Below, one piece after another: positions 2,956-57,713 of a DNA stretch of 64,000 nucleotides. The stretch spans positions 56,050,431-56,114,430 of the forward strand of contig JASFXZ010000002.1 of the NCBI GenBank assembly GCA_032209605.1, given 5' to 3'. This stretch comes from Mactromeris polynyma. Its lineage: Eukaryota > Mollusca > Bivalvia > Venerida > Mactridae. Each line of letters begins with the position of its first letter. Position 1 is the first letter of the stretch. Made by a program: the position numbers and the translations under genes. The notes beneath the pieces are model-generated. The model saw only the letters and a list, made by a program, of their open reading frames with translations, made no database searches and had not been told where the DNA came from.

Positions 2956-3203
2956 TTGCATGTTTTCGTGTTTTGCTAATGAAATTATGTGTAATTTTAT
3001 TAGAAATATTATGAAAATAAAGAGAGTTTGGAAACCATTCGTACTTTTTCGTCTTCATTTTCATTTTTTATGTGCATTATACACAGTAAAAAAGCCTTAA
3101 AACAGGGGTAAAACTGGGAGTAGAGTACGAAGTCCTTTTTTAAAATATAACGAGTTATATAATCATTAAAATGTTGTTCAAACAAAAAAGTAATTTAATT
3201 TAC

Positions 3204-3294
3204 CTGCAAAATGGGGATCGTCGCATTGTCGAATTAATGTATTTTCAACCACGTGTAGTTTAATAATGTATAATAAAATCCACAAATACATCAT
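3204..3294 (-). CDS. First-exon copy of lectin receptor (A0), signal-peptide exon
   Basis: A 91-nt exon on the minus strand, starting with two adjacent ATG codons and ending in phase 1 at a GTAAAT donor. It encodes a hydrophobic leader (MMYLWILLYIIKL) and ends with CDDPHFA plus one base. It has the same length, phase and ending as exon 1 of gene A (12178-12268) and no stop codon. No F5/8C, membrane or tail exon was found between here and the left edge. It is therefore either the 5' end of a gene continuing past position 1 or an orphan exon left by partial duplication. Confidence 0.6.
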
Positions 3295-6699: not shown

Positions 6700-7539
6700 T
6701 ACTAACATAAGAGTTGTATTATGAATATTTTTTTAAAATGTGCAAGCTGGTCTGTGAAAACGATTCTGGTAAAAGAAAGTGAAAAGGTTAACAAATACAA
6801 TGCGATACGTAGTTCATCAACGGTTTATGTAACTGTCGATAGGTTTTGGAGAACATGAGGCACTAGCAGTTTCGAAACTGCTATGTCTCTTATAATTAAA
6901 TCATGAGCATAAATTTTGTTTTTGAAATAATTTTAATGCCGTAGCATGTTTACCAAAACATACATATCAGTGTTTTGACATTGCATCAAGTCATTCTGAC
7001 AACTGAAACAATAAATAAACAAATTTACATGGCAGATCCATAGCTAAAATGATAATCATTCTAACCAACTGTAAAGTGTCGCATAAACAAAACATACAAC
7101 CATTTTCCGAATATGATCCCCACCATTATTGCTGCTGGTAATAAAATGTCCGATGGCAACAAACATGGGTCGATATAAGACGCTTTGGTAAGGTTGTAGC
7201 GACATGTATTATTTGTCTTACACCACCATTTCATACTCCTCACATTGTACATCTGTAGGTCTGTTTGCGTCTAGTGGTGCTGAGAATTAATCATAGATAT
7301 ATACTATACTAGTTGTGTCTGGATTGTGGATTTTTGTAACATAAATATAATTATTATGACTGTATGAGAATAGTGTTGCCTGAATATGCAGCATTTTAAT
7401 CTATAATCGGGTTCCTGTCTATATTCGCCATTGTAATATATTGCTTTAAATAAATAAAATGTCAGAATGTTGTTGCAGAAGCATTAATATAACATACAAC
7501 CGGTGATGCACATACGTTAGCGATAGCTCATGCAAACAG
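6700..7539. other. 3' flank of gene A, partly conserved with gene B
   Basis: From about 7190 to 7539 the sequence is alignable with 49550-49851, the 3' flank of gene B (for example AATAAAATGTCAGAATGT and the GTACATCTGTA region). It probably includes the 3' UTR. Left of 7190 the similarity stops and nothing is recognised. Confidence 0.5.
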
Positions 7540-7559
7540 TTATCCGTAGAAAATTACCT
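7540..7559 (-). CDS. Gene A exon 6 (terminal)
   Basis: Short terminal exon after acceptor TTCTCAG, coding EVIFYG then TAA. The matching exon of gene B codes EVISYGQLFA then TGA. The exon is tiny, so it rests on the phase match and on conservation of acceptor and sequence between the two paralogues. Confidence 0.6.
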
Positions 7560-10500
7560 CTGAGAAAGTAAATTACATGCCTGGCAAAAGTTTGTTATGT
7601 ATAAGGTACTGGAACATTAAAAGTACCCTATTTGAAATCAAAGTGCGTCATACTGGGAACAAATGCTACAATATGTCTATATTCTATCCAAGGTAGCAGT
7701 TTAGTCTACCAAGACTCACTTACACACTCTATACTGTTCACACTGCTGTATTCAATATTTATTAAAATAGAGAGAATAAGTTTCTACAGAGAACGCCACA
7801 TACATATTAAGAATATGCCTCTCCACACAGACCTCCGGGAAAACAACATTCCATAAAACCTAAGGCATTGTAGGAGGCGCAACGGTAAATACGTAAGGGA
7901 ACAGGGGCACAAGGAACATAGTTATACTGGTCAAAAGATCTATACCGCCATTTTGTAGTTTTTGAATATTCACTGTATTATGATAATGGGCTCTGAAACG
8001 ACGAACGTGATTTTTTGCAAGTTTACATTGACTTTATTCAATAGTTAAATTCATTTGAATCTTAAATTGTGTAGCTCGATGCAAACATCACAACATCAAC
8101 GGAATCTGTATCCAGTAGCTTTTTTAGAAACTGTGGCAAAAAGTACTGATGGGTTAACACTTTTGATCAGTATATTTGACTATGTAATATATATATTGTC
8201 AGCAGTTTATTTAATTCTGAGAATTAAACTATCAATGTAATTTGGTAACTTATTTGGTATTTTCATTCGTTTTGAAACCTCCTCTCTTTGCATAGACCTG
8301 TTTAAGGGAAGTTCTGATTTGTTAATGTTGCCATCCCTGTGTCACATTTATCCACTTTTAAAATTATTTTATCATATTTAAAACTAAAAGCAGCTAACAT
8401 ACCCGGTGTGATTTGGTCATATGATTGAGCATTTCTATTCACATTCTCTAAGTCTGTATAACTCATTTCTTTGGGTATTCTTCTACAATGTCGAAGATCG
8501 AATATGAAATAAAATTCGGCGAATATATATAAAAATCACTGCTATAATATGATTGGAATTATACAAACTAAGTTAATTGATGTATAGAGGATATTGAATG
8601 AGTGATAAATATTCAAATCGAATGAATTAAATATTCTTTTTATCACATATCCGACACAATAAAAATGTAGGATGGGTGTTTCCCCCTACCTTATTTTTTC
8701 GGTTGACTTTAAGAAGCGACCCATTAGAAAAGTGTTTGGGCATATAGATAATTCTCGCCACCCTGCTCAAGAATATGCATGTATACATATAAAAATAAAG
8801 AAAAATACAATTACAACTATAATGTGTAGGTATCGACACACCTACTAAAGGAATATATGATATTACACGAGTAGTCATAAATAACTGACATTCTGTAAAC
8901 GATAAAACGAGCCTTTGGTCCAATTAGTATGAACATTTATCGAGGCGTATTTTGCTACTGATTACATCGGCCTCATGGCAATGAGCGTCGCTTGATATTC
9001 TCGAGTTCGGCAAGGACGTTGCAATAATGACAAACATAAAAAAGTATGTAATTGGATTTCACTTTGTGGAAAGTCAACATGTATTTTTAATGAAGCCTTA
9101 TCAGTCGATGCTGAAACCTACCTGTATTTGACAAACCAAATTGTCAACAATAACGTAGTTGCTATGACAGCACCACCAACACCAGAAATAGCTCCAACAA
9201 CAAAATACTCCTCCGATTTATTATTATCGGTCACCTCTCCTCCCAACTGGTCTGTGACAGTCCAATTTTTTGAAATCGCTGAAATGATGTAAAGAATGAA
9301 ATACAAATAATATTCAATTTTGCAACGATCTCCTGTTGGATTGGACATTTGGTGGGTGGGCAAATGGAAACCTTATTGAAATGCTTTCACGTTTGGTAAG
9401 TTATATAATGTACATGTATTCAAGTAAACTGAACTACCGAAAGAGATTGATGTAAACCTGTCCAAATCATGTTCTTCGTTTCAGACCACTCTTTTCACCA
9501 GTGTAAGTTAAGATCAATTGTATACACATACTAGGAAACTTGACGAATGTATAGTGTGTAATTATCAAACATGAATTTACAAACGAGAATGGTCAAATGT
9601 AAGTATCAGTAATAGTACTAACGATAATGATTTAGTGACGATTATTAATATGATGAGACAAAAATACAAATACAAAATTTTTAAGTTGTTGTACGTACGT
9701 GTATAAATCTCAACTTCACAAACGGTTACCATGGAGGTTCCTTCATCAACCCATATGTTGGAATTGGGAGGTACAGAAATCATTGCTGACTTGAATTCTA
9801 CTTTGTCGTATTTGTTAATGCGCAGCATAATGATACGTTTATTGTATTGTTGCAATTTGGAATCATTGTATAATGTTCTTCCCTCATTGAGCCCTTCAAC
9901 GAAGCCTGTTACTTCGAAATTTTTCAATCGAAACCGATCTAAAATGAATTGCTCATATCAATATTGCTGAAGTCATTAATCCTACAATATAAATTATCTA
10001 ACATCAATTGAAGCCAAATGACCACATTGTCAGAAATAGTTGAAGTTGTCATGCTAACCCGCCAATAGTTGGGTACATTTTAAACCTGGTCAATTCAGAG
10101 CAATAATTCTAACAGGCATTAATTGAATGAAATAATTCGGCACATAAATGATAGTTAAATTAAGTGCAAAGCAGTAGTATTGGATTTTTATACACTTTTT
10201 CTAAATAATTTCAGTTTTGTTTGGCGGTCGCTTGACCTGACCAGAATTTTTGAGATACAAACCGGTTCTTACCAGTTCTTTTTCAAGCAACTGACAATTT
10301 CCTACACGAATCTAAGGTGAAAGAACAAACAAATTTGAATGTACAAAGTATTAACTTCAATCAAAGTGTTACGGAGGACGCACACCTCATCGAGGGTTCA
10401 AATCTATGTTCTTCAGATTGGTAGTCGAACATTCTATCAACGGATGGGCTTTAATAATAGATACTAGTTGTCAATACCAACAATAAAACATACTATGCTC

Positions 10501-12268
10501 ATTACTCCGGCTATAAATGATAATTCCAGAAATGATGTATGGTTTGTCGAAGTGAACACGCCACCACGAAGTTCCATTGCTCGGACAAGAGTGTGCACAT
10601 GTGCCATACTCGGAACTTGTGTCGGTATTGCCATCGACAGCATTACTTGCTATTGCATCATCATAATCTCCAGATTGTCCGGTTTCTTGTCCGAGAGCGA
10701 TATTCCTTCCTAAAATATAAGAAAGAATTCAAAGGACTGAATGTCCGTGGAGGCGCTTCCAATGCAAGCTGAATGTTTTGTATAGTATCGTATTAGAAAT
10801 TAATACGTGCCTATTCGAGTAAACTCATTCGCCAAAAATGACACAAAACTTCCAGAAAAGCCGTTTATATCAAGACTCCCGCCATTCCACAATTGCTACA
10901 TCCTTGACAAATACTTTTCAAATCTATTATAAAATCAGAGGATTTTACATGTACTTTTTCGTGAGATGATGAATATGGCGGTACTTCGAGTAGACCATCT
11001 GGTTAACGATTATAGCAATGAAATGCTAAATCGCCTCAAAAACGGGCGATTTACTGTATGGTATAGCTGACGGTATAACCAGAAGCAATTAACTAACGTC
11101 TGATTTAAACTATACCATAAGCTTAAAAACCTAGATTCAGACATGCTTTATTAAACATCTATATAACAGGCAATAACCATGACCATGATATATTTGAGGA
11201 TACCTCAACACCGTGATAAGTATCTTGACTGATTACAGACATAGGTCGATTATATTAAATGTAAATTGTGATTTTGTGGACCTGGTTACATGCATGATAT
11301 TATGTTTCCTATCGTAAAGGACATCTTCCGTTTCTACTCAGACAACGCTCAATAGTCAATGTCCTGCAGCTGCATCCAAACAGACTACGACCTAATTGTT
11401 AATAATATATCTGTCCCAACAACAACCGCCATGTCATTTATGTGTAGCCGAAACATATGCGATACCAGGACAGCAACCATAGGGACACTTTTATAAGAAG
11501 AGCCATGCTGGATAATGTTGTCCCATATGTCACTGAGTAGTATGACCCAAATATTGTCAACCTAAGAATGTTTTCAAATACATTTCTTCCGCGTTTTTCA
11601 CCACGCAGTCACTTAAGCGGCTACAATAAAACCATTGATCTGTATATCAAAGTGTACGCTCGATCTTATCTGTATAGATAAGTTAAGTTTATTTATGTCT
11701 AACCTTTGTACGTGATTGTTACAAATATACATAATATATATATAAAATGATAAAAATGTAATTCATGCACGAAACCACTCAATCTGAGTTATGAGAGACA
11801 AGATAATAAGACATAACATTACAATCTGTATAATTTTATGTGAAATCTCTGTCGAGTTCTGTATGCGATCAAACATGCAAATGCTTCAAAAATTATTACC
11901 GTTTTATAAAATTCCACACGTTTAGACGATAACAAATTCCATTGATAATCACAATGTACACTGATTAGTAAAAATGATACGGTACTCAGTGTAAGATGGC
12001 CTTTGTATTTAATACGTTACTAAAGCAGACATTTAGCCAAGGCGTATTTATCGTTTAAATATTGTAAGATGAAATCCGGTTGTATACGTGTTAATCAATT
12101 ACATGTATAATGTCCCGATTTCAACTGCAAATATAAGCATACAAATTATGAACCTACAAAAAAGTCATTCATTTTACCTGCAAAATGGGGATCGTCGCAG
12201 TGTCGAAATACTGTATTTGCAACCACGTGTAGTCTCATAACGAATAATAAAATCCAAAAATACATCAT
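7540..12268 (-). CDS. Gene A: transmembrane fucolectin (F5/8C) receptor with ITAM-like tail
   Basis: Six exons on the minus strand: 12268-12178, 10709-10494, 9938-9699, 9278-9122, 8482-8403, 7559-7540. The joined frame is 804 nt (267 residues plus stop) with all splice phases compatible. Order: hydrophobic leader (MMYFWILLFVMRL), F5/8-type C domain of the fucolectin/tachylectin-4 type at about 31-182 (NIALGQ, AVDGN, CAHS, WWRV, CEVEIY), a short juxtamembrane stretch, a helix at about 208-232 and a tail with Y243TDL, nine residues, Y256DQI. Family knowledge: FTP domains bind fucose and other sugars. ITAM tyrosines recruit SH2 kinases when phosphorylated, but here the motif match is the only evidence. 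It lacks the sushi exon of paralogue B. The start was chosen because the leader follows it directly, although an upstream in-frame ATG exists at 12361. Confidence 0.8.
7788..7915 (+). repeat. Dispersed repeat family R1
   Basis: Near-complete copy inside the last intron of gene A, running from GAACGCCACATACAT to GGGAACAGGGGC. It is absent from the same intron of gene B. Confidence 0.65.
8403..8482 (-). CDS. Gene A exon 5 (ITAM-like tail)
   Basis: 80 nt, acceptor ATTGTAG, donor GTATGT, same length and phases as exon 6 of gene B. It encodes MSYTDLENVNRNAQSYDQIT. Both tyrosines and their +3 aliphatic residues match gene B. Confidence 0.75.
9122..9278 (-). CDS. Gene A exon 4 (juxtamembrane and transmembrane)
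   Basis: 157 nt, enters in phase 1, leaves in phase 2, acceptor TTTCAG, donor GTAGGT. It encodes a polar stretch (VTDNNKSEE) and a helix with a small-residue patch (SGVGGA), ending WFVKYR. It corresponds to exon 5 of gene B. Confidence 0.8.
9699..9938 (-). CDS. Gene A exon 3 (second half of FTP domain)
   Basis: 240 nt, phase 1 at both ends, acceptor TTTTAG, donor GTACGT. It encodes RLKNFEVTGF, LYNDSKLQQY and the closing TVCEVEIYT strand. Confidence 0.8.
10494..10709 (-). CDS. Gene A exon 2 (first half of FTP domain)
   Basis: 216 nt, phase 1 at both ends, acceptor TTTTAG, donor GTATGT. It encodes RNIALGQ, AVDGNTDT, CAHSC and WWRVHFDKPY, hallmark positions of the domain. The sugar-site signature RxD is read here as RSN, unlike RND in gene B. 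Confidence 0.8.
12178..12268 (-). CDS. Gene A exon 1 (signal peptide)
   Basis: 91 nt, ATG ATG start, phase 1 end before GTAAAA. It encodes a leader followed by CDDPHFA. The split Gly codon is completed by exon 2, giving the start of the lectin domain (G-R-N-I-A-L-G). Confidence 0.75.
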
Positions 12269-18453: not shown

Positions 18454-20547
18454 ATGAAGATAAATGCTGTAACAGTTTTCGTGATTATATGGTTTCTCTT
18501 GGTAGAAATGGGGAGGATAAAATGTGTGGAATTAGATGGTGGTTGTGTTTTTGTTGGAACAGAAGTGTATTGCGTGCATAGAAATCTATCATACATACCT
18601 GAACTACCTACCAATGTAACTGGTCTTAGGTTTAATCATAACTTTCTACCCAACGTCACGAAATCAACTTTCGAAAATATCAGCAATCCGGAACGTATTC
18701 TTTATCTGTGTCTGGCATACAATAAAATAACGACTATCAGCGACGATTCATTTGACAGTTTTACCAGAATCACTTACTTAGAGCTTTCCGGTAATCATAT
18801 AGAGAACTTCTACTTGAAACAGTTACTTGGAGTTTTATGTCACAGGAATTTTACTCTCTCCTTGCATTCTATGGGTGAAGAGTTTACGTCTGACAACACG
18901 TTTTCTTTAATGAATATGTGCAACTTGGGCGGGCTTTATTTGACGCGAAATGATTTCGTAAACGTTTCGCAAAGTATTATTAAACATTTTGATAATGTTC
19001 AAGTTCTGTATTTCGACCACAATAGAATTAAAGAATTTCAACTAGTGTACATGAAACGATTGAAAGTGCTTTCCATTAACCATAATCATTTGACCCACTT
19101 TCCAAACTTCTGTCTTGATAATGACTCTTTACAAACACTGGTTCCAAACATTAATCAACTGTTTATAACGTACAACAGAATTATGGAACTGAGTTCCCAA
19201 CACTTTAAGTGTCTCAGATCCTTGACTACTTTAGACATTTCCGGAAATTATTTTGTAGTCTTCCAAAACGATATGCTTCTTAATCTACCCTCTATTCGAG
19301 AATTGAAAATTGGAACCAACCATGGACATTTGGCCTATGCCGAGAAATATGCATTTCGTTCGAAAACCCTCGAAGGTCTGGCATTTAGCCAGGATGGACA
19401 AGCAACTACAATATTTCGCTCAATAAACGACACTTTTAAATATTCGCCAAATCTGGCATACTTGCATTTAGCTTACATAAGTATGGAGATACCAACAAGC
19501 TCATTACACGGACTGTTTGCACCCTTAGATAAACTGGAGTATTTTATATGCTACGCCTGCAAAATTCGACATGATCCGTCCATTATTCTAGACAACAAAG
19601 ACAATTTAATGGAGATAAATTTGGACAATAACCTCATTGATTATGTTAATAATTCATTGATAAATTCCAAACGGTTTTTGAAATATCTTATGTTCAAAGG
19701 AAACAAACTAGTCCACTTATCTTCAACTGCTTTTCCCGTTGATATGCTTAACAGACTTAAAGTTGTCGACTTCTCGAACAATCCATTTTCATGTGATTGT
19801 GCTCTTGAATGGTTTATTGACTGGCTAAAAACAGCCAACAGGTCAAAGGTAAAACACTTGGAAAGATACAAGTGTGCATCTCCTAAAAAATATGTCGGAA
19901 GATTGTTACTCGATATTAAATTCTCATACTTGGAATGTCATCCATTGAAAATATGGATGTGGGTGATCATAGTTGGTTTACCCACTCTACTTTTGTTACT
20001 TATTATTTCAACAATTCTGTATCGCAATCGATGGAATATTAAACATTATATATATCTGTTTCGGAAACGAAAGAACTATATTCCTATTGAAGGTGCCAAT
20101 TTATTGTATGATGCATTTGTGTCCTATAATCAGAAAGATTCAGTTTGGGTGTTTGATAGATTAGTTCCGATACTTGAAACTGAATCTAATTGTACACTAT
20201 GCGTACATGAGAGGGATTTCCACCTCGGAGCGTATATTAATGACAACATTGTTCAGCGCATCAAAGAAAGCAAACGGATGATTATAGTTTTATCGGACGC
20301 CTTTGCAACAAGTGGTTGGTGCATGTTTGAACTGAAAATCGCACTTTCTAAACACATTCAAGACGAATTTGAAGTTATTGTTATTCTTTTGCAAACGATC
20401 AAAGGCAGAAACATGAATGATTCCATCAAAAGTCTTTTGGAGATGACAACCTACTTAGAATGGACAGAAGATGTTGTTGGTGAAGACTTGTTCTGGAAAA
20501 AACTTCGAGATGCTATGTGCGTAGGAAATAAAAATAACACTGATTAG
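18454..20547 (+). CDS. Toll-like receptor 1 (LRR-TM-TIR), intronless
   Basis: 697 residues in one exon. A signal peptide (FVIIWFLLVEMG) is followed by a short N-terminal cysteine cap, leucine-rich repeats with LxxLxLxxNxI-like units to about residue 440, and a C-terminal cap (NPFSCDC..LEWFIDWL, later cysteines in YKC and LEC). A single membrane helix lies at about 500-524 and a TIR domain at about 550-690. TIR box 1 is YDAFVSY, box 2 is HERDFHLGAY and box 3 is LFWKKLRDAM. Toll receptors dimerise on ligand and recruit adaptors through TIR-TIR contact. The BB-loop proline of RDxxPG is Leu here, as in the paralogue. It has a nine-residue tail after DAM that the paralogue lacks. Confidence 0.95.
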   Translation: MKINAVTVFVIIWFLLVEMGRIKCVELDGGCVFVGTEVYCVHRNLSYIPELPTNVTGLRFNHNFLPNVTKSTFENISNPERILYLCLAYNKITTISDDSFDSFTRITYLELSGNHIENFYLKQLLGVLCHRNFTLSLHSMGEEFTSDNTFSLMNMCNLGGLYLTRNDFVNVSQSIIKHFDNVQVLYFDHNRIKEFQLVYMKRLKVLSINHNHLTHFPNFCLDNDSLQTLVPNINQLFITYNRIMELSSQHFKCLRSLTTLDISGNYFVVFQNDMLLNLPSIRELKIGTNHGHLAYAEKYAFRSKTLEGLAFSQDGQATTIFRSINDTFKYSPNLAYLHLAYISMEIPTSSLHGLFAPLDKLEYFICYACKIRHDPSIILDNKDNLMEINLDNNLIDYVNNSLINSKRFLKYLMFKGNKLVHLSSTAFPVDMLNRLKVVDFSNNPFSCDCALEWFIDWLKTANRSKVKHLERYKCASPKKYVGRLLLDIKFSYLECHPLKIWMWVIIVGLPTLLLLLIISTILYRNRWNIKHYIYLFRKRKNYIPIEGANLLYDAFVSYNQKDSVWVFDRLVPILETESNCTLCVHERDFHLGAYINDNIVQRIKESKRMIIVLSDAFATSGWCMFELKIALSKHIQDEFEVIVILLQTIKGRNMNDSIKSLLEMTTYLEWTEDVVGEDLFWKKLRDAMCVGNKNNTD

Positions 20548-31430: not shown

Positions 31431-31515
31431 CACTCGTATAGTTTAGTTTACAGCCTGTTGATAATTCGTATGGACTAGTGAATATAGCAGTGTATTCAAA
31501 ATAATTCAATTAAAC
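31427..31515 (+). promoter_or_regulatory. Proximal upstream/5' UTR copy of Toll gene 2
   Basis: CACTCGTATAGTTTAGTTT..GCCTGTTGATAA..GGACTAGTGAATATAGCAGTG is a second copy of 30954-31038 and matches 18378-18450 in unit 1. Toll 2 therefore has only this short stretch of original upstream DNA directly before it, with the fragment in between. Confidence 0.6.
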
Positions 31516-33582
31516 ATGAAGATAAATGCTGAAATAGTTTTCGTCATTATATTGTTTCTCTTGATAGAAATGGAGAGGATCAAATGTGTGGAACTAGATG
31601 GTGGTTGTGTTTTTGTTGGAACAGAAGTGCATTGTAGGTACAGAAATCTATCATACATACCTGAAATACCTACCAATGTAGCTGGTCTTCTGTTTACTGA
31701 TAACTTTCTTCCCAACGTTACGAAAGAAACTTTCGAAAATATCAGCAATCCGGAACGTATTCTTTATCTGTGTCTGGCATACAACAAAATAAAGACTATC
31801 AGCGAGGACTCATTTGACAGTTTTACCAGAATCACTTACTTAGAGCTTTCCGGTAATCATATAGAGAACTTCTACTTGAAACAACTACTTGGAGTTTTAT
31901 GTCACAGGAATTTTACTCTCTGCTTAAATTCTATGGGTATAGAGTTAACGTCTGAAAACACGTTTTCTTTAATGAATATGTGCGACTTGAAGAAACTTCA
32001 TTTGAGGCGAAATGATTTCGTGAATGTTACGAAAAGTATTATAAAACATTTTGATAATGTTGAAGCTCTACATTTCGACCATAATAGAATTAAAGAATTT
32101 CAATTAGTGTACATGAAACGTTTGAAAGAGCTTTCCCTTAGCCATAACCATTTGACCGACTTTCCAAATTTCTGTCTTGGTCATGACTCTTCATCAACAC
32201 TGGTTCCAAAGATTATAACACTGTATGTAAAGTACAACAGAATTATGGAACTTGGTTCCCAACACTTTAAATGTCTCTCATCCTTGATTTATTTAGACAT
32301 TTCCGGAAATTATTTTATAGTCTTCCCAAATGATATGCTTCTTAATCTGCCATCCATTCGAGAATTGGGAATTCAAACCAACCATGGTCATTTGGCCCAT
32401 ACCGAGAAATATGCATTTCGTTCGAAAACCCTCGAAGATCTGGCATTTGGCCAGAATGGACAAGCAACTACAATATTTCGCTCAATCAATGACACTTTTA
32501 AATATTCTCCAAATCTGGCATACTTGCATTTAGAATACATAAATATGGAGATACCAACAAGCTCATTATACGGTATGTTTGCACCGTTAGATAAGCTGGA
32601 AAATTTTACTTGCTACGCCTGCAAAATTCAACATGACCCGTCCATTATTCTCGACAACAAAGACAATTTAAAAAAGATAGATTTGGACAATAACCTCATT
32701 GATAATGTAAATAATACATTGATAAATTCCAAACGGTTTTTGAAATATCTTATGTTCAAAAGAAACAAACTAGCCCACTTATCTTCATCTGTTTTTCCCG
32801 TTGATATGCTTAACAGACTAAAACTTGTCGACTTCTCAGAAAATCCATTTTCATGTGACTGTGCTCTTGAATGGTTTATTGACTGGCTAAAAACAGCCAA
32901 CAGGTCAAGGTTAAGACACTTGGAAAGATACAAGTGTGCATCTCCTCAAAAATATGTTGGAAGATTGTTACTCGATATTAAATTCTCATACTTGGAGTGT
33001 CATCCATTGAAAATGTGGATGTGGGTGATCATAGTTGGTTTACCCACTCTAATTGTGTTACTTGCTATTTCAACAATTCTGTATCGTAATCGATGGAGTA
33101 TTAAACATTATATTTATCTTTTTCGGAAACGAAAGAACTATATTCCTATTGAAGGTGCCAATTTATTGTATGATGCATTTGTGTCCTATAATCAGAGAGA
33201 TTCAGGTTGGGTGTGTGATAGATTAGTTCCGACACTTGAAACTGAATTAAATTGTACACTCTGTGTACATGAGAGGGATTTTCACCTCGGAGCGTATATT
33301 AATGACAACATTGTTGAGCGCATCGATGAAAGCAAACGGATGATTATAGTTTTATCGGACGCCTTTGCAACAAGTGGTTGGTGCATGTTTGAACTGAAAA
33401 TCGCACTTTCTAAACACATTCAAGATGGATTTGAAGTTATTGTTATTCTTTTGCAAACGATCAAAGGTAGAAACATGAATAATTCCATCAAAAGTCTTTT
33501 GGAGATGACAACCTACTTAGAATGGACAGAAGATGTTGTTGGTGAAGACTTGTTCTGGAAGAAACTTCGAGATGCTATGTGA
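31516..33582 (+). CDS. Toll-like receptor 2 (LRR-TM-TIR), intronless
   Basis: 688 residues, same layout as Toll 1: signal peptide (FVIILFLLIEME), N-terminal cap, LRR array, C-terminal cap (NPFSCDCALEWFIDWL), membrane helix (WVIIVGLPTLIVLLAIST) and TIR with YDAFVSYNQRD, HERDFHLGAY and LFWKKLRDAM. It ends right after DAM because the next codon is TGA where Toll 1 has TGC. An AATAAA follows within about 10 bp. Amino-acid changes between the two are spread through the LRRs, while the TIR is nearly identical, as expected if the ectodomain diversifies and signalling is kept. Confidence 0.95.
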   Translation: MKINAEIVFVIILFLLIEMERIKCVELDGGCVFVGTEVHCRYRNLSYIPEIPTNVAGLLFTDNFLPNVTKETFENISNPERILYLCLAYNKIKTISEDSFDSFTRITYLELSGNHIENFYLKQLLGVLCHRNFTLCLNSMGIELTSENTFSLMNMCDLKKLHLRRNDFVNVTKSIIKHFDNVEALHFDHNRIKEFQLVYMKRLKELSLSHNHLTDFPNFCLGHDSSSTLVPKIITLYVKYNRIMELGSQHFKCLSSLIYLDISGNYFIVFPNDMLLNLPSIRELGIQTNHGHLAHTEKYAFRSKTLEDLAFGQNGQATTIFRSINDTFKYSPNLAYLHLEYINMEIPTSSLYGMFAPLDKLENFTCYACKIQHDPSIILDNKDNLKKIDLDNNLIDNVNNTLINSKRFLKYLMFKRNKLAHLSSSVFPVDMLNRLKLVDFSENPFSCDCALEWFIDWLKTANRSRLRHLERYKCASPQKYVGRLLLDIKFSYLECHPLKMWMWVIIVGLPTLIVLLAISTILYRNRWSIKHYIYLFRKRKNYIPIEGANLLYDAFVSYNQRDSGWVCDRLVPTLETELNCTLCVHERDFHLGAYINDNIVERIDESKRMIIVLSDAFATSGWCMFELKIALSKHIQDGFEVIVILLQTIKGRNMNNSIKSLLEMTTYLEWTEDVVGEDLFWKKLRDAM

Positions 33583-46020: not shown

Positions 46021-46839
46021 TATCTGAACTAATAACTTACAACTAACATCCAACTTCACAGACCTTCTTTTATTTGGGTTTCGTAATTTCAATGAAATTG
46101 CTGGATGATCTGTATACTCTATACACGCAGGACCCGAAGTGTAAACGAGAGGAATTAAGTTTGAGTCTATCAGCCATATATCTATTATACTTTTTTCTAT
46201 ATTATTTTTTCTTCACCACGTGTATTGAGTTTTGTTTTAATTATTTATCCTCCATATGTCTTTGAGTTTAAACAGTTTTATCAATTTGGACAGATTTTTA
46301 ACTGTTTTGATTTTAGATTGTTTACATGTTTGGCTATTTGTATACTGGTGTTGTACTGGTGTTTTGTTTATTTAATCTGTCTTTTTCATCAAGGTTGTCA
46401 TTTATGTGGCCCCCTAACAGAATCATCCCCTGTGCGTCATGTTCAATAATTGTTTGTAACATGTTGAAGTAGGAGTTTCTATTTCTGTAATCAGTGTTCG
46501 CGTAGACATTAACTAATGTGTAGGTATTATTTTCAATGATAATGTTTATTAAAATATAGCGACCATTTGTATCTAGTTTGAAGTTAATAGTATCGCAAGA
46601 TAATGTTTTGTTTATTAAAATAGAACAACCTCTGCTTAAATTATTTCCGTAGGCATTATATATATGCCATTCATGGAATTCAACATCTAACATTGGGGAC
46701 ATGTCAGGAGTAAAATGTGATTCTTGAATGAAAACGATGTCTGCTTTTTGCACTGAGATATACAGTTTGAAGCGTGCTCTTTTTTATTGTCTCTAAGTCC
46801 CTGACGGTTCAGGGAGAGAATATGAAAATGGTCAGTCAT
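46020..46839 (-). mobile_element. LINE 5' relic (start and endonuclease domain)
   Basis: On the minus strand it begins MTDHFHILSLNRQGLRDNKK and, after a one-base shift, reads ADIVFIQESHF (endonuclease motif with catalytic Glu), LVNVYANT and GMILLGGHINDN (where GDFND is expected, so the Asp is replaced by His). Then come broken frames with DIWR, SIIDIWLI and finally KLRNPNKRR. This matches the apurinic endonuclease of non-LTR retrotransposons. It lies 3' of the RT relic, so the two are not parts of one intact copy. Confidence 0.8.
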
Positions 46840-47408: not shown

Positions 47409-49090
47409 TTAAAAACTCGTTTTTGGTTTCAAATAATTCTTTAAGCTTATACATATTTGGACGTGACCAGTAATATGTTTTATGTATTTCTTGCGTAGAT
47501 CAATATATAAAGAACATTCTAAAATTAAGTGATACTCGTCTTCAATTTTGTTGCAGATTAAACATTTTCTTTCATCTCTTGGGATACTTCTAGGTTTATG
47601 CCATCTAGCGGACTCTATTTTTAAATTATTCGATGAAAATTTTAATCTTGTCATCGCGATCCTAAATTTACTAATGTTAATATATTTCAGATAAAATTGA
47701 TACTAAAAATGAATAACCAAATGCGCCCTACTCGAGTTTTCTAAACGACTCTGACAATTTTGAATACTAGTGTCTATAAGCCGTTGTTTAAAAATGTTTA
47801 AAAATACTTCAGTGTCACCAACGGTTTGTGCTAACCAGACCTCGTGACCTAACTCTGACAACAGATTACGGACTAATGTAAAATGGAATGACATAAGAAT
47901 CTACTTTCAGCACATTGTATATAATTTTACAAAATTTAATTTCACTGCACGATTGTATTTTCAGCCAATATTTAATTATTCTGATGAATCTATATTATGC
48001 CAATTCAAATCTGCCTAATACACCGCTCACAAAGTCGTTCTGAGTACACCTTTTAACGTTTAAAATTCGTTTACAGTATTGGGTATATACCCTTTCTGCA
48101 TTACTTGTTTTGTGAAAACCCCACACTTCACAGGAATAATTCATAATAGGCAAAATCAATTTGTCAAAGAGTTCTAAATTATGACCAACAGATACATAAG
48201 GAAAATTAAGAAGATATCTGTTTAATTTAAAAATTGCTTTTTGTGCTTTACCTGCTACAGAACACTGTGTTACATTAAAGGATCCACCCTGTGTAAAAAC
48301 TTTACCTAGATATGAAAAAGAACTTACAATTTCTACACCGAAAGTGAATTTAGTATCGCGCGGCAGTAATCCCGCTTTTCTAAAAACAACTACTTTTGTT
48401 TTTTTGACATTGATTTTTAACTTCCATCTATTGCAATAATCGAATAATAAATCGAATCCTTTCTGAAGCCCTTCGGCTGACTCTGAAATAATTACAATGT
48501 CGTCAGCATATAGTAAGATAAATAATTTTGTCATTAAAACATCAATACATACAAAGTTGTTTAAACACAGATATTCTTCTAGATCGTTCAAAAACATAGA
48601 AAACAGAAATGGGGACAAACATTCACCTTGGCGTACGCCTAACATACCACTCGATTTTCGTCCGAGGCATTCTTTCTATAATCAATTAAAACGGATAAAA
48701 ATTGATACCGTTTCTAAGCACAATCATCACTAAACCATGATTTGTTATAATTTGGTGAAACATTTTCATGGCTGTAATTATCTATAGGACGCTTGAATAA
48801 TTCATCGGTTGTACTACACATAAGACATGAAAATGATTCTAAATTCGACTCAATTTCTTCACAATTTGTACAGTTTTTCACTTTGGCGACAATAATATTT
48901 AAATTAACAGTAAAATTTTTATTACTAATAGAATTAATATATGTCTCCTTCATATCGTTGCACCATGTATATCTATAATCAACATATTTAAAATCAACGG
49001 CATCAGTTTGATCATTGTCGTGGCCATTATCGATAACAGAAGTTGTGTTTTCTAGTGTTAAATCAATGACACATAAAATGACATATACCA
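47409..49090 (-). mobile_element. LINE relic (reverse transcriptase and C-terminal domain)
   Basis: Pieces on the minus strand: linker to 48714 (ends YNKSWFSDDCA), then directly the later half of the reverse transcriptase (48645-47995) with GVRQGECLSPFLFSMFLNDL, LLYADDIVII and WKLKINVKKTKVVVF. After stops come a helical stretch (47894-47703) and a C-terminal zinc knuckle CLICN..HLILEC (47654-47409). The early RT blocks are missing: the linker joins the RT part with a stop at the junction. A dead copy, subfamily not assigned. Confidence 0.85.
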
Positions 49091-49502: not shown

Positions 49503-49851
49503 GCTTGTCAGATATATTTTGGTCAGGTTGTAGGGAAGAATATTATTCGTGTTACACTACTATTTCATACACCCCACATTGTACATCTGTATGATTGTTT
49601 GCACCTGCGAATTAATAATAGATTATATATACATTTTTAATACAATATAATAGCATTGTCTAGAGTGGGGTTCTGTGTAACATAATTATAATTATTATAA
49701 CTGTATAAGAATATTGTTCAGCATCATTTTAATCTATAATCGAATTATTGTCCTTACTCGTTATTGTTATATATTGCTTTACATAAATAAAATGTCAGAA
49801 TGTAGTTGTAGAATAATAAATATAACATACAATCGGTGATTTAGCGATACC

Positions 49852-49883
49852 TCATGCAAATAGTTGTCCGTAGGAAATTACCT
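49852..49883 (-). CDS. Gene B exon 7 (terminal)
   Basis: Codes EVISYGQLFA then TGA after acceptor ATATCAG. The start of this exon and its acceptor are conserved with gene A. Confidence 0.6.
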
Positions 49884-52800
49884 CTGATATTGCAAATTAA
49901 AACGGTTTGTTATGTATATGGTACTGGAATAGATCAAGTACACTAGTTGCAATCAGTGCTACACTATGTCTATATTCTATCCAAAGAATCAATTAATTGA
50001 TTAGAAATTATTGCAAAGATTTTGACTTTTTATTTGGTGTATTTGCATTCGTTTTGATGCCTCCTCACTTTGCCGAGACCTGCTTAAAGGAATTTGTGAA
50101 TGTGGCATTCTTTGTGTCACATTTTAACTTATATAATGATTCAAACGATTGATAATTGTCCTAATTAAAACTCAAAGGTAACATTAAAAGCAGTCAACAT
50201 ACCAGGCGTGATTTGGTCATACGATGGAGCACTTCTATTCACATTATGTAAGTCTGTATAGCTACTGTCTTTGGTTGTTCTTCTACAATGTCGAAGATCG
50301 ATCATGAAATAAAAGCAGGCGAATATGTTACTATAATCACTGCTATAATATGATAAGAAACAAAAAAGCATTAACCAAATTCAATATACATGTACACTAA
50401 AGGCTTTTCTAATCGGTCACACTACGTTTCGGCTCTTTATCAACATTGGTAGAAATCTGAAACCGTAATAATAAGGTTTTTGTACAATCATCTGTGAATT
50501 GTTGATTGAAATAGAATATGTTGAGGGTAAGAACGAATTATACAAATTAAACTCATTGATGAATAGATGATATCGAATGAGTATTGTATTAGTATTGAAT
50601 TTATTGAACGAGTTGAATATAATAATACGGGGCGAACCTTCATGACTTTACATTTAGTTATTGATTTAATTTGTGGTTATTTTTATTCTGACGTGTATAT
50701 TTTAGTTACTTAGAACACGGTGATTATAAGGCTACTTAGATTCTTCGTGCTGGAGTATACACAATGTGTCTGTTGTTATGTACGTACTGGTTATTTGCTT
50801 TTAATAATGAATTATTGCCTAATTAGTCAATTTATGTGTATGTGTTGGATACCAAAGTCCGTATAACTATTACATGTGAGGTTAGCTAGCTGTTAAATCG
50901 ATTTTAATCCCCGATATTTTTACTGACAGTTCCAAGGCTGTAAATCGCTGAATGTTTTTTTTATTTCGATTTGTGTTTTAGATATATATTAAATTTCCCT
51001 TTTCACATGTTCAATTCTTTCATGTGATATAGTGTTCATGTTATTTTCTCCCCTCTTTCGGCCTATTATTGCCAGCTTTCTTGACTTGTCCTGTGATGTA
51101 TTCCATCCATTAACCCCAGTTGTCCTTTATGGTCGATTAGGCCATTGCTTGCGCCCATGTTCCCTTGCTCAGGAATATACATGTATATACATAAAGACAA
51201 GTACAATGGCAACTACACTGTGTAGGTATCGACACAGCTACTAAAGGAATATAGGAAATTACATGAACAGTCATAAACAACTAAGATTATTCAGTAATGG
51301 ATAAATCGAGCCTATGGGTCTATACCATGGACATTTATCAAGGCTTTTACATTGGCGTGATGACGATGAGCGTCGTTTGATATTCTCGAGTTCCGTGCGG
51401 ATGTTTCAATAATAACGCAGGCGCATATAAAACGATTGTACTCGGATTTTACTTTGTGGAAAGTACGATGTTGTTTGTAACTATGTCGCATCTACTGACA
51501 TTTGCTTCGATTTTGCACAAATATAATACTATCTATCAATGCCCAGAGTTATTGTGACAGTTGTTAGTTGTTGCAACAGATTCTTAATTGTTTTAATGTT
51601 AAAATTTACCTGTTCTTAACAAACCAAATTGCCAGAAATACCATTGTTGCAATAAACGCACCACCAATACCAGACATGATTCCGACCAAAGGAACCGAAA
51701 GTGTCGATTTATTGCTATCTGAGACCTCTGCTGTGGCAGCACCTGCGGATTATAAACGTAGAGCTTAAAATAATGCCTACCAAGTAGCTCTGTGAGGTAT
51801 GTTAGATAGTGACTGTTTTCTTATAAGAAAATGAAATTTCAATAACTAGGAGCGAGGTATTCATTGGAGATGTTGATCAGTGTTTTGGACAGTTTTTAAA
51901 CTTGGAAAATGCGTATCAGAGCAAATCAGGTTTTGACAGAAGCATTATTTAAAATGAAACAGCTGAGCACAGTACAAAAACGCAAAGTTGCCAAATGCAA
52001 GGTGTTTATATCAAAGACGTCTTTGTAAGGCTATCCTAACATCCATTAACTATCTAGAGGCAAGAATATGGAAACGCTGCTCAAAGGTTTATGATTTACA
52101 GTAAAACCTCAGTTTTACAGTTTTCTTATAAGAAAATGAAATTTCAATAATTACGAGCGAGGCATTCATTGGAGATTTTAACAGATTTTAGGACAGTTTT
52201 TAAACTTGGAAAATACGTATTAGACCAAACAAGGTTTCGACCGAAGTATTATCTAAAATCAAACAGCTCAGCACAGAACAAAAATGTAAAGTTGCCAAAT
52301 GCATGTGTTACTGTCAAAAAAGTGTTTACGAGGCTGTCCTAACATCCGTTAACTTTGTAGAGGGAAGAAGATTGAAACACTGCTCAAATGTTTTTGATCT
52401 ATCATGTTAGAAATAGGAAACGGACACATAAATGTATAAATGCGGTGTATATATTGTAGAGCTGCTATATAGCTTTTGTGAATATGTAGATTACCTTTTT
52501 TCATGCAATACATATCTTCTCCACTCCATGAACCATTTGTCAGACACGTGCGTCGAATGTTAGGTAAATTTGGGACAAAACCTTTGTCACACTTGAGTTT
52601 GATAACATCATCTACTTCATATCCGTCGTATTTGGAAGTGGTCGATCCATTTAGCACGTAAACGCCATTGAACGTTTCTACATGTTGACACGAGGAGTCT
52701 GTTTAAACAGATAACATTGTAAACGAAAGGTGTTGTAGATGTATTGATTATTCACGACATGGCTGATTGATACAATTAAGGATGGAAGCAGTATTCAACA

Positions 52801-55800
52801 AGTATTCCTAACATGTATATATTCAGCGAATGCACAATACAGTAAACTCTCGTTATAACGACCATGTTTGTTCCCAGGATATGTTTCATTGCATCGACTA
52901 TGTGGTTATAGCGAACTTTGACAAATGAAGTAAGGTGCACATTTGTTTACCCTGGATTTGTCTCGTTGAATGAACATTTTATTGTGAGGAATGTCAGTGT
53001 AACGAGAGCTGACTGTTAACACATATCTATAAATACATGCACATATAACTGTACACAAGTAATTGCATTTGTAAGAAAAAAACAACATTTTTTTCTTCAT
53101 AGATAAAACTCATAAATAGACTATACGGAGGATAAGGCAAAACATATTAAACTTATTTTGTCTTCCTCCAATCATATGATGAATATGATAATTGATTCTG
53201 GTAGAAATAATTAATTACGTCTGGAAACCAATGAATATTTCTTATCAACTGACCATTGTTTATAACTGTATTATGTTTAATTCGTCTTAAGGTATTCCAT
53301 CCATACTGGACACTTCTCCAACGGCAAATGAAACTTGTATTGATTCAAGCTGTACTATAATGCGGATAAAAATTTAAAATTTCATAAATTTTACCTTTCT
53401 TAAAAAATTACGACCGTTTTTCTATGTAAACTTCCTTCATGATAAACGTTAGCTTTATAAAAAAGCCCAGTAAATGGAAAATTAACATTTCACTTCTCAT
53501 TTTGAAATACTTCTATATTAGGAAAGCATCTTTGTACTAATCAGATATGTAGAATAAGGTTATGTAAGAAACAGCTACAAGAAATTCAAAGAAAATGTTA
53601 GTTTTTTACATTTATGCATATAGCATTTAAAAAATGGGCAAATTTCCTTTCAAAATTACAATAGTATTAATAGCAGATGACCTAAACTAACTTGATGTAT
53701 CAATAGGGCATCAAATTGCCTGTAATAAAATTATTTATCTAACACAGATAATTTCAAACTTTCAGAGACTTTTACCATCCGGTTACAGTGCGATTGCTTT
53801 TGAACAGAAGGACGTACACATTTTTCTGAGAAAAATTAACACTTCCTAGTGGTTTTGTTTGCTTTTTCACAAGTATTGGTCTTTTTCAAGAAAATTTAAC
53901 TTAGAGAGATAATAAGTTGCTACAGGGAACGCCACATACATAAGACAGTGCCTCTCCACACAGACCTCCGAGTGAACAACAATCCATAAAACATAAGTCA
54001 CTTGATGAGGTTAAAGTGTACATACGTTAGGGAACAGAGGCGCTACGAATGGCTTGGCAGACCATCAGAAATAACTAGGAGAGTCAAAGAGGACAAACAG
54101 TAAAAAGGGGGAAATTGATGGATCACAGAACAAGTCAAGACAGCTAGTTACTGGCCAAAAAATAACATGAACACTATATAAAGTGACAGAATTGCACAGG
54201 GGAATGGGAAATATAACATATATATACATCTAAACCACATATCGAAAAAATAACCATACATCTAATTACAGCCTTTGAACTGTCAGTAAACGTATTGATG
54301 GGGTTAAATCGATTCACCTCACACTTAATCGCTATATGGTCATTGATACTTTGATTTCCAACATATAAACATAAATTGACTAAGTAGGCAGTAACTAATC
54401 ATTTAAATCAGTTAACCATTACGTACATAACAACAGGCACACTGTAATTAATCCAGCAGGAAGAAACAAGCAGCCTAATACTGACCATGCTCCTAGTAAC
54501 TAATAATATTAGAATGTAAAATAACCATAACATATCAAATTAATAACTTTATGTAAAGTAAAGTCAACCGGATAATGTAGTTAATAATGAAACAATTCTT
54601 AGATACTAGTGATAGGGAAATGGAATTTTAAAAATATAGACAAATGGAAATATATCTATTAAGAATTTAAACTAAAACAAAAAATACGACAGTACCCAAT
54701 GAGTATTAAGATGCGTTATAAAACAACATTATAGAGAATAAAGTTTTCTTTGAAGAACCAAATGATGTCATATTACGTTATATGTATCATAAAATGTTGA
54801 TGACATCATAAAAAGAAAGGCCTAGCTGTCACAGGGTATATCATATACATAAGACCGTGCCTCCCAGATATCCCCCAATGATAAGTACCATTAGGACAAT
54901 AAGTATAATTTTATGAAATGCTGTCATAATGAAGAAAGTAACCTGGAAATATGGCCCAATGTACATAATGCATAGAAAAGAGGATAGTTCATTAATAAAA
55001 ACGAAAAAATGATCAACCCAACTAATACTTCGACATACATAGACAAACACTGGACAGAACAAAACAAAATGAAACAAGGAAATCACCAACGTAAACCCGA
55101 AACAACACAACCCAATCTCAAAAGGGCTGGTCAATAGTTTTAAGATGTCCAGATGGTAAAGTTATTGTAATTATTAGAAGTAAGTAATAATAATAATGAC
55201 TGTGCAATAATAATAAAATAATAATAATGATAATGACTGTGCAACAAAACCATGGTAATGTGTGGTCTCAATAACTTAATTATTTATTTTCAATATATTG
55301 TCACTGAATTACCTCCCTTTATGAAATATTTCAAGTTTTTAATTATTGCAATTATTTGTTTTGAGTAAAACGTGTTGAAGCAATTTCGAATAGGATTTTC
55401 TAATTTAAATAAATTAAAAACGGTAATATTTTTATATTAAATTTTGTATTTTGCTTAAGCCTCAGTCACACCGGATCGTACGTTTTCTGGATCGTGCGAC
55501 TGGTGGCAATTTGGCCAAGGTACGACCAATCGGCAATGTTTGCTACGATCTCCATTTCCGATCGCATAGTGCGATTGCTCTAACGACGGGTGGTAGGTCA
55601 TCGTACGATCGGTGGTGCGCGTGTTCGTGCGATCACCAACGATTGGAGAAGATCAATCGCGAGATCAATCGTAGGAAAGCGTGCGATCAGCGACCTATCG
55701 TACGATCAATCGTGGCGACCTGCGACCACTCGCACGATCGATCGCAACCAGAGGTCGCACGATTACCTACGATTATTCTTGCGATCGATCTTCTCCAATC

Positions 55801-57713
55801 GTTGGTGATCGCACGAACACGCGCACCACCGATCGTACGATGACCTACCACCAATCTTAAGAGCAATCGACAGGTGACACTACAAATTGTCAGGTGGCGG
55901 GACCGGTAGCACGATCAATCGTGCGACCACTTGACCCACGATCATGCACGACTGGTGGTACGACCATGTAAGACCTGTCTGCGACCTCTTACGATTTGGA
56001 ATCGCAGGTCGGAAGTTTTGAACATGACCATCGACCTTGCTGCGACTGATTTTGCTCTGGCGATCACCCACAACCTCTGCGACCAGTTGTGCGCCCTATG
56101 TACGATTTGCCCATGATTTCAAATTGTTTCGATCGCAGCTATGTCATACATATACAATGGAAACGACGTACTTCAATTATGGGTGGAATACCTTAATTTC
56201 CGGTGAAAACGAAAGTAGAATACATGCTGCACGAAGGTAGCTTCAATACATGAGTTTTTGAGTCATGACGATCGAATATTCGAATACCTGATTTGCCATT
56301 TGTTGACCCCCCCCCCCCCACTAGTTTAAACAATTTACAACAACCAATTAATCGGTACCAGCTTAACACAGTTGAGAATTGATACAGAGGGGAAGAGAAC
56401 TCCAGAAGTACACTATGTGTACTTGCATTACACTTACATGTATATACCTGAACTTCGCACAAGTGTAACACTGATTTGCCAGAGTCAAAAGTCTGATGCC
56501 GCCTCGGTGGTACCGAAATCTTCAACGATTTAAATTTCGTCAGGTTGTAACGATCATTCTTTATTTTGATTGTTTCTTTACTGTATTGTTGCAATGTGGA
56601 GTCGTTATACAAAACATAAGCTTTATTGCTCAATCCATAGCCGGTTATCTCGAAGTCTTTGAGACGGCGACTATCTGTAATAAATTGTGTTTATAGTATT
56701 GTTTACAACTGCAATAAAGTGTATAGTCAATAAAGGTCACCGACCAAAATACATATATTTTATAATTTAGACGCATTATCAAAATGGGGATAATTTGGAG
56801 ACAAAAACAGAGAATGATTTGGGTATGGGATTAAAACTAATTATTGTGCAAGACTCCCTTGACAAAAATCTATAAAATAAAATTTTTATGTACATGTATC
56901 AAGGCTAACATACTTATCGTATCATTTCTAGGGTATATGATAACTCCCGAACTTGTGTATGGCTTATCGAAATACACGCGCCACCACGCGCTTGTCTTAC
57001 TTGCGGCAGTGTGTGCGCATGATCCAGACTCGAAGGCTGTGGCCGTATTGCCATCCACAGCTTTTCTAGCTACGAATGTATTGTATGTTCCAGATTGTTT
57101 CGCACGCTGTCCGAGCGCGATATTTCTTCCTGAATAATGAAGAAAAAAAACCAGAATTGGTCATAAAAAATATATACATTGTACCTCCAATAATAACCTG
57201 TCGGAGATAAGTGGATAGTAAAGCAGGTATCCGAGTTTAGCACAGTAATAGAAGGAACAACAATTGTAGCTTTCATTTCATTAATTGAATGTTTAGGATT
57301 GTATGTTTACTGGTGACAGAAATAACAGTATTATTCGACTCTGTGATAAGTATCTTTCACAAGTATATAAAACAATGGTTGGATGATTACAACATAACTT
57401 GAGAATCTTTATTCTTGTCCCTCGTTGATAAGAAAGGAGAACCATGTCACAATTATCCGTCGTATTTGGAAGTGGTGATATACATCGTGTTGATAAGTGA
57501 CAGTGTACTTGGAATGTTTTGTGTTAGCATTTCTATGGGATGAAATTATCATAAATCAAAGTAATATTTAGTCAGGTGAATCAATAAAATTGCAAATAAT
57601 CCTTTACCTGTAAAGTATGAAGTTTCACAGCCAGGAAATGATACGATTTTGCCAACTTGTAGTCCAATCAAGAAAGGAGTAAGACAAGACACCCATAAAC
57701 AGTTCTTCAACAT
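49852..57713 (-). CDS. Gene B: transmembrane fucolectin-sushi receptor with ITAM-like tail
   Basis: Seven exons on the minus strand: 57713-57608, 57129-56914, 56674-56438, 52698-52495, 51742-51610, 50282-50203, 49883-49852. The joined frame is 1008 nt (335 residues plus stop), all phases compatible. Order: leader (WVSCLTPFLIGLQVG), F5/8-type C fucolectin domain at about 36-186 (NIALGQ, AVDGN, CAHT, WWRV, CEVQVY), one sushi/CCP domain at about 187-254 with four cysteines and the conserved Trp, a helix at about 271-296, and a tail with Y307TDL, nine residues, Y320DQI. The RxDx4R part of the fucose-site signature is present (RNDTINSR). It probably acts at the surface as a glycan-recognising receptor. 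Signalling through the tail is inferred from the motif only. Confidence 0.85.
50203..50282 (-). CDS. Gene B exon 6 (ITAM-like tail)
   Basis: 80 nt, acceptor CATTGTAG, donor GTATGT. Codes SSYTDLHNVNRSAPSYDQIT. The first tyrosine also fits the ITIM consensus SxYxxL. Confidence 0.8.
51610..51742 (-). CDS. Gene B exon 5 (transmembrane)
   Basis: 133 nt, acceptor CCGCAG, donor GTAAAT, phase 1 in and phase 2 out. The helix contains SGIGGAF and ends IWFVKNR, as in gene A. Confidence 0.85.
51812..52405. repeat. Tandem duplication of about 290 bp in gene B intron
   Basis: GTTTTCTTATAAGAAAATGA begins each of two diverged copies (51812-52098 and 52118-52405). Both end with ATGG/ATTG..AAACxCTGCTCAAA. 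It lies between the sushi and transmembrane exons. Confidence 0.75.
52495..52698 (-). CDS. Gene B exon 4 (sushi/CCP domain)
   Basis: 204 nt, symmetric phase 1-1, acceptor TTTAAACAG, donor GTAATC. Cysteines in SSCQHV, KLKCDKGF, RRTCLTNGSW and MYCMKK follow the CCP pattern. The exon has no counterpart in gene A. Confidence 0.85.
52840..53015. mobile_element. MITE with CAGTAAACTCTCGTTATAACG end
   Basis: The left CAGTAAACTCTCGTTA and the right TAACGAGAGCTGACTG are inverted copies, with TA before the left end. Mariner/pogo-like ends. In the intron between the FTP and sushi exons. Confidence 0.65.
53925..54050 (+). repeat. Dispersed repeat family R1
   Basis: TTGCTACAGGGAACGCCACA..CACACAGACCTCCG..GTACATACGTTAGGGAACAG. 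Inside the long gene B intron. A short further piece lies at 54838-54875. Confidence 0.65.
54876..55450. other. Intron 3 of gene B, nothing specific
   Basis: AT-rich sequence with two AATAAT-rich stretches near 55185-55245, each next to GACTGTGCAA. No exon. Confidence 0.4.
55455..56130. mobile_element. CpG-rich foldback element built of CGATCG/CGTACG words
   Basis: In an AT-rich intron this block is dense in GATCG, CGTACG and GCGACC. GGTGGTAGGTCATCGTACGA (55588) and its inverse (about 55833-55852) mark arms of at least 68 bp that continue through GCACGAACACGCGCACCACC. The left end GCCTCAGTCACACCGGATCG looks like a MITE terminus, while the right end is unclear. The open frames through it are products of the palindrome. 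Confidence 0.65.
56307..56319 (+). repeat. Run of 13 C
   Basis: Homopolymer in the gene B intron just 3' of exon 3. Length uncertain in any assembly. Confidence 0.8.
56438..56674 (-). CDS. Gene B exon 3 (second half of FTP domain)
   Basis: 237 nt, acceptor TTACAG, donor GTAAGT, phase 1 at both ends. Codes RRLKDFEITGYG, VLYNDSTLQQY and HLCEVQVYT. Confidence 0.85.
56914..57129 (-). CDS. Gene B exon 2 (first half of FTP domain)
   Basis: 216 nt as in gene A, acceptor TATTCAG, donor GTATGT. Codes RNIALGQRAKQSGTY, AVDGN, SCAHT and WWRVYFDKPY. Confidence 0.85.
57608..57713 (-). CDS. Gene B exon 1 (signal peptide)
   Basis: 106 nt, ends ..TTT ACA G before GTAAAG (phase 1). The leader is unlike those of A and A0, while the phase is the same, so the exon was exchanged or has diverged strongly. 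Confidence 0.75.

Follow-up and report, generated by a model that had tools for sequence, protein, structure and literature searches.

Immune receptors of vertebrates turn on Syk kinases through a paired tyrosine motif. Among vertebrate proteins, Dectin-1 joins sugar recognition to a Syk-binding tail, and FcgammaRIIA carries its own immunoreceptor tyrosine-based activation motif (ITAM) with long spacing; the ectodomain of Drosophila Draper is of the EGF type. Bivalves have comparable receptors. In the oyster Crassostrea gigas, the tyrosine motif of CgCLec-TM1 and CgCLec-HTM is reported to associate with Syk, activate ERK and induce IL-17 (PMC13027682, PMC12842671), and CgIgIT2 bears a classic ITAM of its own, recognises Vibrio as well as lipopolysaccharide, and acts via ERK (PMC11999971). 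Draper (Draper/CED-1) likewise carries its own ITAM and works with Src42A and Shark, a Syk-like kinase (PMC4503800), and Drosophila furrowed and CG9095 combine an F-type lectin (FTP) domain, CCP domains and a predicted transmembrane (TM) segment (PMC5712786). Here we describe two genes, A and B, in a 64,000-nucleotide stretch of the genome of the clam Mactromeris polynyma (the window, C112:56050431-56114430), which we propose, at a probability of about 0.6, to encode type I membrane receptors with an F-type lectin outside and an ITAM-like tail inside, on which a Syk-type kinase would dock without an adaptor.

The ectodomains of Dectin-1 and FcgammaRIIA are unrelated to those of A and B, and Draper is a clearance and damage receptor, unlike the lectin head proposed here. 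CgCLec-TM1 and CgCLec-HTM are likewise bivalve transmembrane lectin receptors with a cytoplasmic tyrosine motif, but they have a C-type lectin and a hemITAM or non-classical ITAM where A and B have paired tyrosines under an F-type lectin, and the ectodomain of CgIgIT2 consists of five Ig domains. Furrowed and CG9095 differ in having a C-type lectin domain as well, with many CCPs in furrowed, and the available part of the source mentions no ITAM for them (PMC5712786). An earlier note on this DNA did not know such a layout, with sugar recognition coupled to Syk/Src-type signalling in one polypeptide, as a described receptor class. Since oyster C-type lectin and Ig receptors already use ITAMs or hemITAMs, that principle is known (PMC13027682, PMC12842671), and the novelty lies in placing an F-type lectin head above a tail with paired tyrosines. 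The open-licence literature yielded no ITAM-bearing F-type lectin receptor, although one may exist in print, subscription papers being mostly outside the search; the available parts of PMC10140915, PMC8905726, PMC9505182, PMC10253181 and PMC11399299 hold nothing on F-type lectins with ITAMs.

Rebuilt splice models gave six exons and 267 residues for gene A (12268-7540, minus strand) and seven exons and 335 residues for gene B (57713-49852, minus strand), with all introns GT-AG and of compatible phases (Table 1). The spans first proposed, 7540-12268 and 49852-57713, run from first to last coding base with the stop included; the models also bear out that all exons join in frame to a tail with YTDL-x9-YDQI in both genes, and that the 80-nt tail exon has the same length and phase in each (entry phase 2, exit phase 1). 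Gene A encodes a signal peptide, FTP domain, TM segment and short tail, and gene B the same plus one CCP. For the CCP exon no counterpart was found in gene A or in gene C, a third copy outside the window; its symmetric phases and restriction to B are as expected for an insertion (or loss) without frame change. Neither TM stretch contains a charged residue, so there is no sign of pairing with an adaptor. The FTP-CCP intron of B holds an inverted repeat (55572-55869), ~82% identical to its own complement.

The tails that follow the TM segment, 35 residues in A and 39 in B, both contain YTDL-x9-YDQI, and B alone has a third YxxL that forms the further pair YDQI-x6-YGQL. The stop codon TAA of A aligns with the B codon CAA (49866-49864), so that A ends at FYG without the third motif. 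Under a loose ITAM definition, a YxxL/I pair with 6-12 residues between in a cytoplasmic tail, A, B and a Mactra antiquata homologue all qualify with x9, and B also with x6. Among shuffled tails, 1.5% (A) and 0.6% (B) contained such a pair, as did 0.28% of random 36-mers; at a spacing of exactly 9 the rates for shuffled tails were 0.2% (A) and 0.09% (B). A hemITAM is a single YxxL after an acidic run; these tails have at least two motifs each and no three-acidic-x-YxxL match. A pattern search of viral contigs yielded 168 matches, none of them confirmed.

Judged by sequence, the Mactra homologue is better evidence for the tail motif than the comparison of A with B. Searching proteins with a profile of A and B returned six at E <= 10 among 2911 candidates, led by hypothetical protein P0002 of Mactra antiquata (Bivalvia, Venerida; 334 residues, E 1.2e-66, 90% query coverage, 32% identity); the other five, at 22-47% coverage, were one fucolectin-like protein from a catfish and four others with FTP-type Pfam domains, and B alone matched one of 1090 candidates, a catfish fucolectin. 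The Mactra protein has an FTP domain (54% identical to A, 42% to B), a threonine-rich linker instead of the CCP, a similar glycine-rich TM segment and an 86-residue tail that reads YNDL-x9-YEQL and then YNYI-x6-YEQM, YxxM being the PI3K-type SH2 consensus. Between the first two motifs only 1/9 linker residues is identical to A and 2/9 to B, while the tyrosines, the +3 aliphatic residues and the spacing are kept. Shuffled Mactra tails contained an x9 pair in 0.16% of cases and any 6-12 pair in 1.1%, and the B-Mactra tail alignment score was reached by 3/5000 shuffles, that of A-Mactra by 95/5000. In both A and Mactra the motif KxRxxPK runs across the junction of the TM and tail exons, which supports the splice. 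The earlier note had named freely varying tyrosines in orthologues as its refutation; in the one full-length homologue both tyrosines are kept (1/1), a sample too small for a strong claim.

Much of the likeness between the A and B tails has another source. The two genes share a tract of intron, tail exons and 3' flank whose non-coding blocks are 83-86% identical, at a distance of 0.16-0.19, in the three best local alignments beside the tail (80-81% ungapped identity in a looser alignment). The tail itself has a dS of 0.24 and a dN of 0.14, with a flank distance about equal, and the FTP codons are near saturation (dS 2.48, dN 0.39), their dN/dS of 0.16 indicating coding constraint. With tail and flanks about equally diverged and the lectin codons near saturation, the tails are alike mainly through recently shared DNA and have scarcely had time to diverge. 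The TM exon has an A-B dS of 0.81, well in excess of the neutral flank (P from 3e-5 to 2e-4). Within the tail exon 7/26 residues differ, against which four unchanged key residues have P = 0.26 and eight unchanged motif residues P = 0.048; 13/80 nucleotides differ and 0/24 in the motif (P = 0.006, with the motif chosen post hoc and synonymous sites counted). The earlier observation that tyrosines and +3 aliphatics are kept amid change is correct in that A and B do not differ there, but the likeness is largely one of recently shared DNA. We consider A/B tail conservation alone suggestive, not strong, and reject it as proof of selection, the flanking introns being equally similar.

Several results weigh against a signalling, ITAM-like tail. 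The strict ITAM rule requires a spacing of 6-8 residues and fits only YDQI-x6-YGQL of B, leaving the x9 of A and Mactra outside; the ITAM-like tail first described stands in A and B by its 6-12 pair, and the strict pair of B had gone unnoticed. The tail has no relatives in PDB by sequence, and none in the protein database with TM plus tail as the sole query. Tail dN/dS between A and B, from few sites with 4 synonymous and 10 nonsynonymous changes, is 0.59, which does not clearly indicate purifying selection; the homologue evidence is a single orthologue, itself a predicted database protein; and in gene C the 4.3 kb that follow the TM exon contain no recognisable tail exon. Finally, the motifs of A, B and Mactra also fit YxxPhi, and the consensus of the immunoreceptor tyrosine-based inhibition motif (ITIM), [SIVL]xYxx[ILV], occurs twice in B (SSYTDL, ISYGQL), once in Mactra (SVYNDL) and not in A.

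These fits bear on what else the proteins might be. An endocytic or sorting lectin, using its tyrosine motifs as YxxPhi signals for AP-2 in the uptake of glycan-bearing particles, with signalling secondary or absent, is the alternative that survives best, though we think it unlikely. Filter feeders commonly have scavenging lectins and the motif tyrosines of all three proteins suit this role, but one YxxPhi would suffice, and Mactra retains both the pair and its nine-residue spacing despite a changed linker. We see little chance that the proteins are inhibitory receptors of the ITIM type, recruiting an SH2 phosphatase. Drosophila Draper-II, whose ITIM opposes Draper-I (PMC4503800), offers a precedent beside the consensus matches in B and Mactra; A has no match, the second motif (YDQI/YEQL) fits in 0/3 proteins, and the retained spacing points to a tandem-SH2 partner. 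Equally improbable in our estimate is that the tail exon lies outside the mature transcript and the genes stop at the TM exon, encoding tail-less membrane lectins, as C may. Reading past the TM exon meets a stop immediately in A, B and C, ATTAAA lies just past it in A (9086) and B (51592), with further ATTAAA/AATAAA in the intron of B, and C lacks a recognisable tail exon; yet in the protein model from Mactra a similar tail follows FTP and TM, the splice donors (GTAGGT/GTAAAT) and acceptors at the TM-to-tail junctions are intact, and both A and B have ATTAAA ~120-145 nt past the tail stop. That the A/B likeness reflects recent duplication only, with the Mactra match due to luck and the tail without tyrosine function, is very improbable: introns as similar as the tail exon, the tail dN/dS and the absence from A of the last YxxL of B speak for it, but the x9 pair is rare in shuffled Mactra tails, few shuffles equal the B-Mactra score, and the motif has no nucleotide differences against 13 in the other 56.

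Pfam and PDB sequence searches of the joined proteins upheld the F-type lectin in A and B and the CCP in B: PF22633 is above cut-off in A, B, C and the Mactra protein, and the best solved relative of the B protein by sequence is the F-type lectin FBP32 (PDB 3cqo, 7.3e-20). PDB 1k12, an entry titled 'LECTIN' (eel agglutinin), also matched. The calcium motif h2DGx is present as AVDGN in A, B and Mactra and as AVDGD in C. For fucose, the motif of F-type lectins is H...RxDx4(R/K), with 24 residues between H and R (PMC5712786). Gene B has the H, RND, x4 and R, with an H-to-R gap of 27 residues that is slightly longer than the 26 of FBP32 as aligned. A and Mactra carry N in place of the D and F in place of R/K, and so depart from the canonical motif, and C reads RRRIHYQY at this position. 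The sugar recognition claimed at the outset accordingly has motif support in B, but A and Mactra miss two canonical residues. RSN..NRFRLKNF, common to A and Mactra, suggests a derived, retained ligand preference, not decay, and A and B are both putative lectins.

Under the receptor reading, the FTP domain, with one CCP in B, would face outside and a single TM helix would anchor the protein. Ligand-driven clustering would lead Src-family kinases to phosphorylate the tail tyrosines, and a Syk-type tandem-SH2 kinase would then dock directly on the phosphorylated tail, with no adaptor. Transcription, ligand, phosphorylation, kinase docking and immune role are all predictions from the DNA. A search of the genome (793 Mb, 299 contigs) with a human SYK tandem-SH2 fragment gave seven matches, some of them SH2 exons at C1:44.1 Mb and a single one on C146; at C1:3957382-3960915, N-SH2, inter-SH2 and C-SH2 pieces lie in order, and two scanned pieces are SH2 by Pfam. 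As identified from these SH2 pieces, a Syk-like tandem-SH2 locus is present in the same genome. Syk/Zap70-type kinases co-occur with CARD-CC/Bcl10 in invertebrates including molluscs, and the ITAM-containing receptors upstream have so far been inferred from that co-occurrence (PMC5978004). A and B are a concrete candidate for such a receptor, beside the oyster C-type lectin and Ig receptors, and if the reading is correct, F-type lectins join the ectodomains coupled to ITAM-type tails.

A third copy without a recognisable tail, gene C, escaped the earlier note; its TM exon lies 15.5 kb left of the window. Searching the genome with TM plus tail at E <= 10 gave seven matches, namely the TM exons of all three genes, the A and B tail exons, and two weak ones (C168, C259; E 0.027, four stops each) that we take as chance; the tail was not seen as a widely shared module in this search. 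By synonymous distance in the FTP exons (A-C 0.20, B-C 1.84; TM exon A-C 0.36), C is a recent sister of A in the head. A-C homology ends ~80 nt before the tail exon, and two ITAM-like strings in the 4.3 kb, without exon context, were dismissed as a hidden tail and taken as chance. Gene A is thus a combination of a C-like head and a B-like tail. In the TM-tail intron, A is about equally close to B and C (both near 80%), so the mosaic boundary is not sharp. In a tree of six FTP sequences (support 0.885), A groups with Mactra and B lies closer to the outgroups. The tails conflict with this, a pattern that gene conversion or unequal crossing-over would produce. The genes form part of a small array, with alike tails beneath heads of very different age. 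More tentatively, we suggest that an ITAM cassette is kept alike beneath much older heads by recombination within or close to the TM-tail intron ('one tail, several heads'), which also makes mosaics (A) and tail-less copies (C, possible decoys), beside two tandem Toll-like receptors, the whole feeding the molluscan Syk-CARD-CC-Bcl10 pathway. Such an array would illustrate how an animal that lacks antibodies may combine one signalling tail with several old recognition heads and also produce copies without a tail.

Table 1. Coordinates of genes A and B and related features (window positions unless a contig is named).
Feature	Position	Strand	Content
Gene B exon 1	57608..57713	-	Start codon and signal peptide; ATG ends at 57713; donor GTAAAG; in frame
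Gene B exon 2	56914..57129	-	FTP first half; AVDGN calcium-type motif, SCAH; PF22633 5.1e-10, PF00754 2.9e-9
Gene B exon 3	56438..56674	-	FTP second half, CEVQVYT end; phase 1-1; 47% to gene A exon 3
Gene B exon 4	52495..52698	-	CCP/Sushi, PF00084 5.4e-7; symmetric phase 1-1
Gene B exon 5	51610..51742	-	Juxtamembrane and TM (LVGIMSGIGGAFIATMVFLAIWFV); mean hydropathy 2.07 (19 residues); similar in A, C and Mactra
Gene B exon 6, 80 nt	50203..50282	-	Cytoplasmic tail; YTDL 50260-50249, YDQI 50221-50210; alignable with Mactra tail
Gene B exon 7	49852..49883	-	Tail end EVISYGQLFA*; third YxxL = YGQL 49872-49861; stop 49854-49852
Gene A exon 1	12178..12268	-	Signal peptide
Gene A exon 2	10494..10709	-	FTP first half; PF22633 1.4e-9
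Gene A exon 3	9699..9938	-	FTP second half; 85% to gene C exon 3
Gene A exon 4	9122..9278	-	Juxtamembrane and TM
Gene A exon 5, 80 nt	8403..8482	-	YTDL 8460-8449, YDQI 8421-8410
Gene A exon 6	7540..7559	-	EVIFYG*; stop TAA 7542-7540
Tract common to A and B, B side	49518..51476 (A 7184-9087)		Intron, tail exons, 3' flank; several aligned blocks (identity 80-86% outside exons), unmatched stretches between
Gene C (L036)	C112:56034080-56038621	-	Exons 56038531-56038621, 56037025-56037246, 56035358-56035597, 56034780-56034921; signal, FTP, TM
Orphan exon 1, same family	3199..3294	-	Signal peptide; 84% DNA identity to A over 192 nt (3157-3348); 72% upstream (3396-3550)

Between the orphan exon 1 and the left end of the window no FTP exon was matched; a minisatellite-like repeat (2303-2957) follows that exon. 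A 124-residue open frame on the minus strand (5530-5904), with several tyrosines (YELT, YTVE) and no Pfam match, lies between the orphan exon and gene A. FTP domains are numerous in the genome, with at least 83 matches at E <= 0.001. A search with the FTP of A gave 53 matches at E <= 0.01; six correspond to exons of the three genes A, B and C, and the other matches lie elsewhere at 28-42% identity. Other FTP gene clusters include C267:21.86-22.01 Mb, C234:34.69-34.83 Mb, C112:13.3-13.4 Mb and C256:16.2 Mb, and an exon that recurs at the C267 and C256 loci is a PAN domain by Pfam. As further receptors of this kind the clusters were rejected: in 20 stretches of 6-10 kb from some of them, whose guessed placement may have left out 3' ends, neither a TM nor a tail exon of the A/B type appeared at E < 0.05, and one stretch (L021) gave a weak signal-peptide match.

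The window also contains two tandem single-exon Toll-like receptors on the plus strand (18457-20544 and 31465-33582), the first with LRR and TIR domains by Pfam. They are identical at 594/688 aligned residues, with a dS of 0.146 and a dN/dS of 0.49; the pair is about as old as the A/B tail tract, so a single segmental duplication perhaps produced both. On the minus strand, remnants of the long interspersed nuclear element type lie at 46334-46783 and 47995-48675, with endonuclease-like (below the Pfam cut-off) and reverse transcriptase open frames.

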